Source: Gammaproteobacteria bacterium | Lineage (GTDB): Bacteria > Pseudomonadota > Gammaproteobacteria > Nitrococcales > Nitrococcaceae | Reading direction: 5' to 3' | DNA: 64,000 bases | Assembly (NCBI GenBank): GCA_030433275.1 | Contig: JAUILK010000009.1 | Location: 1-64,000 of the forward strand | Part shown: positions 34,097 through 53,486 of the stretch, in pieces | Numbering within the stretch: position 1 is the first letter of the stretch | How the letters are laid out: each line of letters opens with the position of its first letter | Program-made: the position numbers and the translations under genes | The notes under the pieces: generated by a model | Told to the model about the DNA's origin: nothing | What the model saw: the letters and a program-made list of their open reading frames with translations, nothing else | Databases searched by the model: none

Positions 34097-34627
34097 ATGA
34101 ATATTCGAAACTTGCCGATAACTCTCGGTATCATCGCCCTGCTGGTAGGGTTGGCGGGAGCCGTTGGGGCGGCCGAGCTCAAAATCGGTTTTGTTAACCC
34201 GGCGCGGGTATCCTCACAGGCACCGCAGGCGGAGGCAGCTCGGAAAAAGCTGGAGAAAGAGTTCGCCCCTAGGGATAAGGAAATCGTCGCTATGCAGAAG
34301 GATTTGAGCAGACTGGAGGGGAGGATGCAGCGCGACGGGGCCGTGATGAGCGATGAAAAAAAGCTGGACCTGCAGCGTGAGATTATTGCACGCCGACGGG
34401 ACGTTCAACGCACCCAAGAGGCGTTCCGTGAAGATTTCAACATGCGGCGCAATGAGGAACTCGCTAATCTTCAGCGACGGATTCTAAAGACCGTAGGCGA
34501 TTTTGCCAAAAAACAGGGCTTTGATCTGATAGTCACCGACGGCGTCATCTACGCTAGCCGCGAAGTCGACATTACGGATCGAATCATAGAACGCCTGCGC
34601 CAGGATTATCGCTTAGGTAGGAATTGA
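34097..34627 (+). CDS. skp: Periplasmic chaperone Skp/OmpH
   Basis: Trimeric periplasmic chaperone that carries unfolded outer-membrane proteins to BamA. The 176-residue precursor has a hydrophobic signal peptide (cleavage near GAVGA), the N-terminal strand LKIGFVNPARV, a long highly charged coiled coil (about 45-130) rich in Lys, Arg and Glu, and the C-terminal strand block GFDLIVTDGVIYAS. It sits between bamA and lpxD as in E. coli. Confidence 0.94.
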   Translation: MNIRNLPITLGIIALLVGLAGAVGAAELKIGFVNPARVSSQAPQAEAARKKLEKEFAPRDKEIVAMQKDLSRLEGRMQRDGAVMSDEKKLDLQREIIARRRDVQRTQEAFREDFNMRRNEELANLQRRILKTVGDFAKKQGFDLIVTDGVIYASREVDITDRIIERLRQDYRLGRN

Positions 34628-34677
34628 TGGCTCTGTCAGCCGTAGCTGTCAGATCCCACTAGAGTGACGTAGGCACC

Positions 34678-35742
34678 ATGGCAGATCCTAAAGGTGTGAG
34701 CCTCTCGGAATTGGCGCGCGTGATCGGGGCGCGGTTGGCCGGGGACGGCTCTAAACGGATCCTGCGGGTCGCCTCACTCCAGGACGCGTGCGCGGATGCA
34801 TTGAGTTTTCTCGCCACTGATCGTCAGCGGCGCCACTTGGCACATACCCACGCAGGAGCCGTGATTCTGCGCCCACAGGATCTGGTGGCGGCGCCGGTGG
34901 CGGCGTTGGTTTGTGACGATCCTCATGTGGCATTCGCCCGGGCCGCGCAGCACCTTACCGGTGCAAGCCGTTCCACGGTGGGGATTCATCCGACGGCTTG
35001 GGTGCACCCTGAAGCGTTGTTGGAAGGGCAGGTGAGTATCGGTCCGCATGCGAGCATTGCGGCCGGCGCCTATCTTGCGCGACGGGTCAGCGTGGCGGCT
35101 GGCTGCGTTATCGGTGAGGCGGTTGAAATCGGGGAAGATAGCCGTTTGATGGCCAATGCGACGATTTACCCCAATACGATTATCGGTCGGCGTGTTATCG
35201 TCCATTCGGGTGCGGTACTGGGTTCCGATGGCTTTGGCTATGCCAACGACGCTGGGCGCTGGATCAAGGTGCCCCAATTAGGTCGAGTGATCATCGGCGA
35301 CGATGTGGAGATCGGCGCCAACACGGCAGTGGACCGAGGGGCGCTCGGGGATACCGTTATCGAGGAAGGCGTCAAGCTCGATAATTTGGTTCAGATCGCT
35401 CATAACGCGCGCGTCGGGGCCCATACGGCTATGGCGGGTTGCTCTGCTATATCCGGCAGCACTCGAGTCGGGAAAAACTGAAGCATTGCGGGCGGTGCCG
35501 GGCTGGCCGGGCATTTACACGTCTGTGATCGAGCCCAGGTGACTGGCATGACGATGGTTACCCATGACATACGGGAGCCCGGTTCTTACTCGTCCGGAAC
35601 TCAAATGGCACCGACACGGCGATGGCGTCGCAACGCCGTGCGCTTCAATCGGCTCGACGAGATGGCTCAGCAGCTGCGTCACTTGGAGCAGCAGCTCGCG
35701 AAACTGCAGGCGAGGGGTAAAATTCTCCCTGGATCAAAATAG
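34678..35742 (+). CDS. lpxD: UDP-3-O-acylglucosamine N-acyltransferase, interrupted by an in-frame TGA
   Basis: Third step of lipid A synthesis. The frame runs from 34678 to 35742 (354 codons, the normal length) but contains TGA at 35479-35481, codon 268. No base is gained or lost: directly after it the same frame continues [25 protein letters not shown] and EPGSYSSG, then ends in the usual helical tail. Homologues, including E. coli, carry cysteine where the TGA stands, so one base change (TGC or TGT to TGA) explains it. The upstream product (267 residues) keeps the catalytic His242 in QIAHN but loses the end of the beta-helix and the C-terminal helices. A sequencing error, a nonsense mutation with readthrough, or recoding are all possible. 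Because lpxD is normally essential, real inactivation would be surprising unless another acyltransferase exists. Confidence 0.85.
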
Positions 35743-35762
35743 CAACAGAGCGCAACAAACCT

Positions 35763-36212
35763 ATGGACATTCACGGCATTCTCAATTATTTGCCGCACCG
35801 TTTCCCGTTTCTGATGATTGACCGGGTATTGGAGTGCGTTCCCGGAGAGATGCTCGTGGGCGTCAAAAACGTATCGATCAATGAGCCTTATTTCAATGGC
35901 CATTTCCCGCAGCGGCCGGTAATGCCGGGTGTGCTCATTCTGGAGGCCATGGCGCAGGCATGCGGCTTGCTTGCCTTCAAGACGCGGGAGCAACAACCGG
36001 ATGAGCAGCAGCCGGATGCTACGAAAATCTTTTACTTGGTTGGGATCGAAAAAGCGAAGTTCAAACGGCCGGTAGAGCCTGGTGATCAGCTCTGGCTATC
36101 GGTGCGTTTTAGTCGCAGCATGCGCGGTATTTGGATGTTCGAGGCTGAATCGTATGTACAGCAGGTTCTTGTTGCGCAGGCACAGATCCGCTGCACAATG
36201 CGGGAAATCTGA
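35763..36212 (+). CDS. fabZ: 3-hydroxyacyl-ACP dehydratase FabZ
   Basis: Hot-dog-fold dehydratase of fatty acid elongation. The 149-residue protein has the catalytic histidine in FNGHFPQRPVMPG and the glutamate in LILEAMAQA. Residues about 75-88 hold a hydrophilic insertion (EQQPDEQQPD) encoded by a tandem 15-bp duplication, absent from most relatives. It lies between lpxD and lpxA, where both pathways draw on 3-hydroxyacyl-ACP. Confidence 0.97.
   Translation: MDIHGILNYLPHRFPFLMIDRVLECVPGEMLVGVKNVSINEPYFNGHFPQRPVMPGVLILEAMAQACGLLAFKTREQQPDEQQPDATKIFYLVGIEKAKFKRPVEPGDQLWLSVRFSRSMRGIWMFEAESYVQQVLVAQAQIRCTMREI
35988..36017 (+). repeat. 15-bp tandem duplication inside fabZ
   Basis: GAGCAACAACCGGAT (35988-36002) is followed directly by GAGCAGCAGCCGGAT (36003-36017). 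The copies differ at two third-codon positions, so both encode EQQPD and the duplication is not brand new. It lengthens a surface loop without breaking the frame. Confidence 0.85.
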
Positions 36213-36214
36213 GC

Positions 36215-36985
36215 GTGATCCATCCCCGCGCCGTTATTGCCCCTGCGGCGGAGCTTGCCAATGATGTCACGGTTGGCCCATATGCGGTGATCGGTCCTGA
36301 TGTGCAGATTAAAGCTGGGACCTGGATTGGGCCGCACGTCGTCATTCAGGGGCCGACACGTATCGGCGCTAACAACCGGATTTTTCAGTTCGCCTCAATT
36401 GGCGAAATACCCCAGGACAAAAAATTCCAGGATGAGCGCACTTGGCTTGAAATCGGTGCAGGCAATACCATCCGCGAATACGTCACTATCAACCGCGGCA
36501 CCGCTACTGGGGGGGGGGTCACTCGCGTGGGCGATGATAATTGGATTATGGCATATTGCCACATCGCCCACGATTGTCAGGTGGGCAATGCGACGGTTTT
36601 CGCCAACAATGCTTCGCTCGCCGGCCATGTGGAGGTGCATGACAATTCGATCCTGAGCGGTTTCTCATTGGTGCATCAGTTCAGTCGACTGGGGAGGCAC
36701 TGTTTTTTGGCATTTGGAGCGCACGTGGACCGGGATGTGCCACCATATGTTATGGCGGCTGGACAGCGTGCTACCCCTCGCGGAATCAACAGCAAAGGAT
36801 TGCAGCGTCATGGTTTCACCAAAGAGACAGTGCAGACACTGAAGCGGGCGTATAAGACCCTATATGGTTCCGGGCTGCGGCTGGATGAAGCCTTGACAGT
36901 GCTGGATGAGATCGGGCGCGAAGTTCCCGATGTGGCAATTTTCAGTCATTTCATCCGGGGCAGTCGGCGGGGGATCATTCGTTGA
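36215..36985 (+). CDS. lpxA: UDP-N-acetylglucosamine acyltransferase
   Basis: First step of lipid A synthesis; transfers 3-hydroxyacyl from ACP to UDP-GlcNAc. The 256-residue protein is a left-handed beta-helix with hexapeptide repeats and the catalytic His119 in CHIAHDCQVGN. The C-terminal helical domain starts after RGINSKGLQRHGF. Translation begins at GTG 36215, three bases after the fabZ stop. Residues 99-101 (GGG) are encoded within a run of ten G (36509-36518); the frame is intact with ten, so slippage there would truncate the protein. Confidence 0.96.
   Translation: MIHPRAVIAPAAELANDVTVGPYAVIGPDVQIKAGTWIGPHVVIQGPTRIGANNRIFQFASIGEIPQDKKFQDERTWLEIGAGNTIREYVTINRGTATGGGVTRVGDDNWIMAYCHIAHDCQVGNATVFANNASLAGHVEVHDNSILSGFSLVHQFSRLGRHCFLAFGAHVDRDVPPYVMAAGQRATPRGINSKGLQRHGFTKETVQTLKRAYKTLYGSGLRLDEALTVLDEIGREVPDVAIFSHFIRGSRRGIIR
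36509..36518 (+). repeat. G10 homopolymer inside lpxA
   Basis: Ten consecutive G within the lpxA reading frame. Such tracts are prone to slippage in vivo and to length errors in sequencing. As written, lpxA reads through in frame. Confidence 0.95.
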
Positions 36986-52244: not shown

Positions 52245-52906
52245 TGGATGGGCGTCGCGTAACGGGAATCGGTATGACCTCGCAGCGTACCCGTGAGCGT
52301 CTAGTGGCGCGTCTCAGCAAAGTCGGTATAACCGACCTGCGAGTGCTCAACGCGATCCGCCATGTGCCGCGCCACCTGTTCGTTGAGGAGGCGTTAGCAA
52401 GCCGCGCTTATGACGATACCGCTCTGCCGATCGGTTATGGTCAGACCATTTCGCAACCATTCATCGTCGCCCAGATGACCCAGTTGCTGCTGGAAGGCGA
52501 AGGGTTGCACAAGGTATTGGAGGTGGGTACAGGTTCGGCTTATCAGGCCGCGGTGCTCGCGAATTTGATTCCGTATGTTTTCAGTATAGAGCGATTACGC
52601 GTGCTGCATAATCGCGCTCATCGTCTGATACGCGAGCTGCGGCTGAGCAATGTCCGTCTTCGGTTGGGGGATGGTCATGAAGGTTGGCCCGGTGAGGCCC
52701 CTTTCGATGGTATCATTCTTACGGCGGCGCCGCTGACGATTCCTCAGAGCCTAGCCGAGCAGCTGATCTTGGGTGGTCGGCTGGTAGCACCTATCGGTAC
52801 GGACGGGAATCAGTGTATGCGCGTTTGCGAGCGCACTGAGCAAGGGCTGATTTGTCGTGATGTCAGCCGTGTGAGTTTCGTGCCGATGAAGCACGGTCTT
52901 GGATGA
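52244..52906 (+). CDS. pcm: Protein-L-isoaspartate O-methyltransferase
   Basis: Repairs isoaspartyl residues in aged proteins with S-adenosylmethionine. The 220-residue protein has the substrate loop ALPIGYGQTISQPFIVAQM, the SAM-binding VLEVGTGSAYQAAVLA, and the PFDGIILTAAP block. ATG 52244 overlaps the surE stop; an internal ATG near 52274 is an alternative. Its stop overlaps the yqaA start. Confidence 0.96.
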   Translation: MDGRRVTGIGMTSQRTRERLVARLSKVGITDLRVLNAIRHVPRHLFVEEALASRAYDDTALPIGYGQTISQPFIVAQMTQLLLEGEGLHKVLEVGTGSAYQAAVLANLIPYVFSIERLRVLHNRAHRLIRELRLSNVRLRLGDGHEGWPGEAPFDGIILTAAPLTIPQSLAEQLILGGRLVAPIGTDGNQCMRVCERTEQGLICRDVSRVSFVPMKHGLG

Positions 52907-53486
52907 GGCGCTTTTTCAGCCGGCTCTATGGCATTGTGCGGTGCGGTGCCAGCCAGCCGCACGCTCCCTGGTTCTTGGCCGCGTTAAGCTTCGCGGAATC
53001 TTCCTTTTTCCCAGTGCCGCCGGATGTCATGTTGGCGCCGATGGTGTTGGTGCGGCCCTGCCGAGCATTGCATTTCGCCTTGCTGACGACACTGGCATCG
53101 GTGCTCGGTGGCTTGCTCGGTTATGTGATCGGCTACTATGCTTTTGAGCTTGTTCGCCCTTTATTGTATTCATGGGGGCAATGGCAGAGCTATCTCGCGG
53201 TGCGCGATTGGTTTGATCGTTGGGGATTTTGGGCGGTTTTGATAGCTGGTTTCTCGCCGATACCCTACAAAGTGTTCACGATTGCCGCCGGTGCTATGCA
53301 AATTGCCATAATTCCATTCATGTTGGCTTCTCTGCTTGGGCGAGGGGGGCGGTTTTTTCTGGTGGCCATTCTCATCGCGTGGGGGGGGGGAAACTGGAGC
53401 CTTGGCTGCGCACCTACATTGACTGGGTTGGGTGGGTAACCGTTGCTGTCCTCGTGCTGGTTGTGGCGTGCCTGCGGTTGTTGTGA
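52903..53486 (+). pseudogene. yqaA: DedA-like membrane protein YqaA, frame broken at a G10 tract
   Basis: YqaA-type inner-membrane protein of the VTT/DedA superfamily, with its usual place between pcm and nlpD. The N-terminal 160 residues are normal (for example FAESSFFPVPPDVMLAPM and GFSPIPYKVFTIAAGA). At 53381-53390 a run of ten G throws the frame: as written the protein ends at 53439 with an unrelated tail. The expected ending (KLEPWLRTYIDWVGWVTVAVL, stop 53484-53486) continues in the next frame and would be restored by 8 or 11 G. Either the tract is phase-variable, or the gene has mutated, or the base count is wrong. The restored stop overlaps the nlpD start, which favours a recently functional gene. 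Confidence 0.8.
53381..53390 (+). repeat. G10 homopolymer breaking yqaA
   Basis: Ten consecutive G between GCGT and AAACTGG. Eight or eleven would give an uninterrupted YqaA protein. It matches in length the G10 tract inside lpxA. Confidence 0.95.

Follow-up and report, generated by a model that had tools for sequence, protein, structure and literature searches.

An in-frame TGA in the lpxD gene of a Nitrococcus relative is most probably a consensus error, with a recent nonsense allele as the alternative

The lpxD locus and its interruption

The window analysed here, a stretch of 64,000 nucleotides, is part of contig 31; the assembled genome has 3,414,347 bases (104 contigs, completeness score 100%). 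The genome falls in the same genus as Nitrococcus mobilis, a nitrite-oxidising bacterium, and its nearest named relative at LpxD is N. mobilis Nb-231 (90% identical). Within the window, lpxD (Table 1) lies between an OmpH-matching gene (ompH/skp) and a gene for a FabA/FabZ-type dehydratase (fabZ). The genes lpxA, lpxB and rnhB come after fabZ, and bamA lies upstream. All six neighbours match Pfam families of their own, in agreement with the initial annotation, which had described them as intact; their names were assigned from the Pfam match together with gene order. The lpxC gene also scored over its cut-off and is free of stops. A ten-G run in lpxA (36509-36518) has nine G at the matching place in N. 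mobilis and looks natural. Among the matches listed in literature searches on lpxD nonsense mutations, TGA readthrough, LpxD structure and Nitrococcus, no title was apparently on this genome; a search on pseudogenes in assembled genomes gave no papers.

Table 1. Features of the interrupted lpxD frame (positions in the window)
Feature	Coordinates	Strand	Basis
lpxD frame (UDP-3-O-acyl-glucosamine N-acyltransferase), broken at codon 268	34678..35742	+	TIGR01853 and NF002060 matches across the stop; identity to congeners
TGA in frame, at the position of Cys in homologues (E. coli Cys265)	35479..35481	+	Sequence and homologue alignment
Codon 267, window-only change: Asn here, Tyr in N. mobilis and G004	35476..35478	+	Comparison with both congeners
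267-residue product if the TGA terminates	34678..35481	+	Residue mapping to E. coli LpxD

Codon 268 of lpxD is TGA, and the rest of the frame is open from the ATG to the terminal stop at 35740-35742, so the TGA is the sole interruption, as had been claimed. When the TGA is taken as Cys, the 354-residue product scores 426.3 bits against NF002060 (cut-off 207) and 368.9 bits against the TIGR01853 LpxD profile (cut-off 242.5). The earlier observation that the flanking codons match LpxD with no indel also held: the alignment with E. coli LpxD (3EH0) is gapless across residues 7-340, placing codon 268 at E. coli Cys265 and the catalytic His239 at His242. Both the left-handed helix and the C-terminal helices of LpxD are encoded, partly only 3' of the TGA.

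We surveyed codon 268 in 109 loci, which gave 104 distinct homologue rows. The residue is Cys in 99 of these and Val in the other five, with a stop in none, which bears out the proposal that homologues have Cys here. Asn-Cys occupies codons 267-268 in 23/104 rows; Asn at 267 is common elsewhere, and the change to it need not be harmful. Of four congeners, three gave an lpxD match (G004, N. mobilis and a third, at 93%, 90% and 83% LpxD identity), and all three have Cys at codon 268 and no stop; the fourth, G002, an assembly of 660 contigs, gave no lpxD match, perhaps because of an assembly gap. Among the strong matches listed, LpxD genes of seven other genomes had one stop each, and all seven have Cys at the position of codon 268. 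Their stops lie at an end of the match (in L228, at codon 2 of the fetched stretch), and we rejected the idea that the TGA is shared with other LpxD genes; weak stop-bearing matches in G079 and G081 were left out of this check. No match to the lpxD DNA was found in phage records, nor to a window motif in viral contigs.

If the TGA terminates translation, the 267-residue product keeps His242 and Gly260 (E. coli His239 and Gly257) and loses His279, Met293 and Arg317 (E. coli His276, Met290 and Arg314) along with the C-terminal helices. In E. coli LpxD, kcat falls 32-fold in the His276Ala variant, Met290 forms the end of the acyl pocket, ACP binds chiefly the C-terminal domain, and Asn310 contacts a phosphate of the bound acyl donor (PMC6286764). 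The window LpxD has Thr at the place of Asn310, so not every contact of the E. coli enzyme is conserved. From this residue mapping, a working truncated LpxD is unlikely. One could also imagine LpxD in two pieces, the 267-residue part assembling with a restarted C-terminal part, and in-frame start codons do occur downstream (GTG at 35539, ATG at 35548 and 35554). However, the nearest of them is codon 288, 20 codons past the stop, leaving codons 269-287 and with them the equivalent of E. coli His276 missing, and none of the seven stop-bearing LpxD genes is split near codon 268; we regard such an arrangement as extremely unlikely.

Decoding of TGA in the genome

Of the four explanations put forward in the initial annotation, readthrough and a redundant acyltransferase gained no support, as neither decoding machinery nor a second LpxD was found; the other two, a base-call error or a fresh nonsense mutation, stay as the best explanations. 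A profile search of the assembly with TIGR01853 returned four matches, and the only one above cut-off is the window lpxD; of the other three, two lie inside lpxA and the third, on contig 24, is weak. A redundant lpxD was rejected, as only one copy was found in the assembly.

The TGA stands at a near-invariant Cys position, and this alignment makes selenocysteine worth weighing. In searches for its machinery across the assembly, which has gaps, SelA gave no match, and the best SelB match (187.7 bits, cut-off 242.25) fell in a 411-codon frame among tRNA genes, a setting that would be expected of EF-Tu. The best tRNA-Sec score was 42.9 (cut-off 47), and each of the 14 matches fell on a tRNA gene of another type; scoring covered 150 of the 378 first-look candidates. 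Nor did structure 3' of the TGA support recoding: an 82-nucleotide fold was no stronger than shuffled sequences (z = -0.97; 33 of 200 shuffles as good), and no Rfam match to E 1 was found in 34500-36300, in line with the earlier remark that no SECIS element is evident downstream. Bacterial SECIS elements vary and may be absent from Rfam. Together with the ordinary Cys in three congeners and the absence of any stop at this position from the 104 distinct rows, these results led us to reject selenocysteine, whose probability we place close to nil.

A suppressor tRNA or a reassignment of TGA could likewise let codon 268 be read as an amino acid. Release factor RF2 is present (498.8 bits, over cut-off, profile positions 13-353, no internal stop), and in 464 kb TGA closes more of the stop-to-stop frames of at least 250 codons than either other stop codon does (173 of 342, counting shadow frames). 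None of the 42 tRNAs found in the genome has a TCA anticodon. The tRNA-Trp is ordinary, with a 5-bp anticodon stem, G24 and A9 (by our numbering of the sequence), and is without the changes of the readthrough variants described in PMC13092985. The tRNA set itself is incomplete: tRNA-Ile GAT, tRNA-Ala TGC and tRNA-Arg ACG were not found, and some loci, perhaps rRNA operons, seem to be missing despite the 100% completeness score. An unseen tRNA is thus possible, but with RF2 in place, TGA ending so many long frames and no second truly interrupted gene in the comparison below, suppression or reassignment was rejected and appears very improbable.

The initial annotation had proposed looking for other in-frame TGA codons at Cys positions. 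Two scans for interrupted genes by codon usage missed lpxD: one returned no candidates at all, and the other returned 127 but scored the lpxD end below its own threshold. Both were therefore replaced by comparison with relatives. We compared 283 N. mobilis frames of at least 150 residues with 324 kb of the genome (contigs 6, 19 and 31); 138 frames matched at 60% identity or more (52,679 residues, about 5% of the genome's bases). Stops were flagged in 12 of the 138, lpxD included, and only lpxD looks truly interrupted. Of the other 11, all but one look like over-long starts or shadow frames: they carry more than one stop, have only a very short segment ahead of the stop, or lack third-position bias in that segment. 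The exception, an N. mobilis frame matching the window from 53351 onwards, shows some third-position bias before its stop, 6/4/10 over 23 codons, as against 3/0/1 over 13 codons in the comparison with G004; since its stop at 53420 precedes the start of a LysM/M23 gene (53432 at the earliest) and the bias is lacking against G004, we took this frame to be an over-long start. Five of 49 G004 frames compared were flagged, and lpxD alone had third-position bias on both sides of the stop and looked truly interrupted. In the reverse direction (139 genome frames against N. mobilis), 11 frames were flagged for stops, which look like over-long starts or shadow frames, and one as split (contig 19, 13516-14118).

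The comparison with relatives is weak for frameshifts near gene ends and missed one at 52903-53439, where a gene for a VTT-domain (DedA-like) membrane protein is frameshifted near its end relative to N. mobilis and G004. The change lies near 53381-53390 at a ten-G run, giving a product of 178 residues with a different tail. This break fits a local error or ordinary decay alike. N. mobilis itself has runs of up to nine G, so the break is not decisive for the lpxD TGA, and such runs were discarded as evidence of error.

Consensus error or recent nonsense mutation

The interruption had been attributed to one substitution. This proved incorrect: codons 267 and 268 each carry a T-to-A change, five bases apart (35476 and 35481), at sites that are identical in N. 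mobilis and G004. Among the 2812 window-only substitutions in 45,433 gap-free columns, T-to-A is the least frequent class, with 25 cases, and no other two of these lie within 5 bases of each other. Random placement of 25 changes over the T sites produced so close a pair in 6% of 20,000 trials; the closeness of the pair is thus mildly unusual and suggestive only. Adjacent amino-acid changes were dropped as a sign of error, as all three lineages show more of them than a uniform distribution predicts (window, 52 versus 23.6; N. mobilis, 39 versus 22.9; G004, 10 versus 5.6). A search of 34401-36600 for a nearby template for the two changes gave no second copy of the short site motifs in either orientation. 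Window-only substitutions elsewhere are mostly transitions and look natural, and no ambiguous bases occur in 484 kb of the genome; nothing marks the assembly as noisy overall.

Substitutions in lpxD are concentrated at third codon positions on both sides of the TGA. Counts by codon position are 19/12/56 before the stop and 5/2/18 after it in comparison with N. mobilis, and 9/9/61 and 5/2/17 in comparison with G004. We infer that coding constraint acted on both parts of lpxD during most of the period after the lineages split. On the window lineage, 6 of 35 changed codons before the stop and 5 of 16 beyond it are non-synonymous, a difference that is not significant (Fisher p = 0.29).

Taken together, these results point to a lesion found only in this assembly rather than to a recoding signal, with a consensus error as the likeliest cause and a recent nonsense allele as the next. 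We put the probability of a local consensus-sequence error at codons 267-268 at about 0.6, in which case the living cells would carry an lpxD gene with no stop. LpxD has an essential role in most Gram-negative bacteria, the pathway genes examined (lpxA, lpxB, fabZ and lpxC) are intact, and the two changes lie close together; because of these three points we favour an error over a mutation. The single lpxD, the stop-free gene in 3/3 matching congeners and the coding constraint on both sides of the TGA also support an error. Against it, the clustering of the pair is only mildly unusual, the Asn 267 change may be real and unconnected, and the surrounding sequence is clean.

The alternative, which we hold tentatively as possible and clearly second to an error, is that the nonsense mutation is real and arose recently in the strain or population that was sequenced; its cells would lack complete lipid A, like some lpxD mutants of Acinetobacter, or would use basal misreading of TGA. 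The clean sequence around the TGA fits such a mutation, and the non-synonymous share is nominally higher after the stop, although, as noted, not significantly so. Few species are known to survive without lipid A, and the intact state of the pathway genes examined speaks against a mutation. Acinetobacter baumannii ATCC 19606 can grow after disruption of lpxA, lpxC or lpxD (PMC5837183), so death from a broken lpxD is not certain; on the other side, truncation would remove residues important for catalysis and for acyl-chain and ACP binding (PMC6286764). That the TGA is real and the strain lives either by misreading TGA often enough for LpxD or with little or no lipid A is, in our estimate, improbable. 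The base-call error and the fresh nonsense mutation are the two best explanations, and these sequence data do not separate them.

If the TGA were real and tolerated, the organism would be a Nitrococcus relative in which the lipid A pathway is conditional or absent, and survival with a broken single lpxD would, if the TGA were confirmed, be worth study. The case also calls for caution: an in-frame TGA at a Cys position mimics recoding, and here copy number, relatives, tRNAs and selenium genes speak against it.

Comparison with known systems

The window gene resembles known LpxD (UDP-3-O-(3-hydroxymyristoyl)glucosamine N-acyltransferase; TIGR01853; structures 3EH0, 4IHF and 3PMO) in its full-length alignment through the stop, its conserved catalytic His and its gene order (bamA, ompH, lpxD, fabZ, lpxA, lpxB), and differs from it in the stop in place of E. 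coli Cys265 and the Thr in place of Asn310. It shares with the lipooligosaccharide-deficient lpxD loss-of-function mutants of A. baumannii a disrupted lpxD in a Gram-negative bacterium; unlike them, the organism is a Nitrococcus relative and its lesion is known from an assembly alone. As in bacterial selenoproteins, a TGA stands where homologues have Cys, whereas the genome has no selA match and no selB or selC match above cut-off, the TGA is not conserved, and no structure beyond chance follows it. The lesion is like the stop-codon errors of draft assemblies and like recent pseudogenes: it is single, it is found in one genome, and three congeners have the gene intact.
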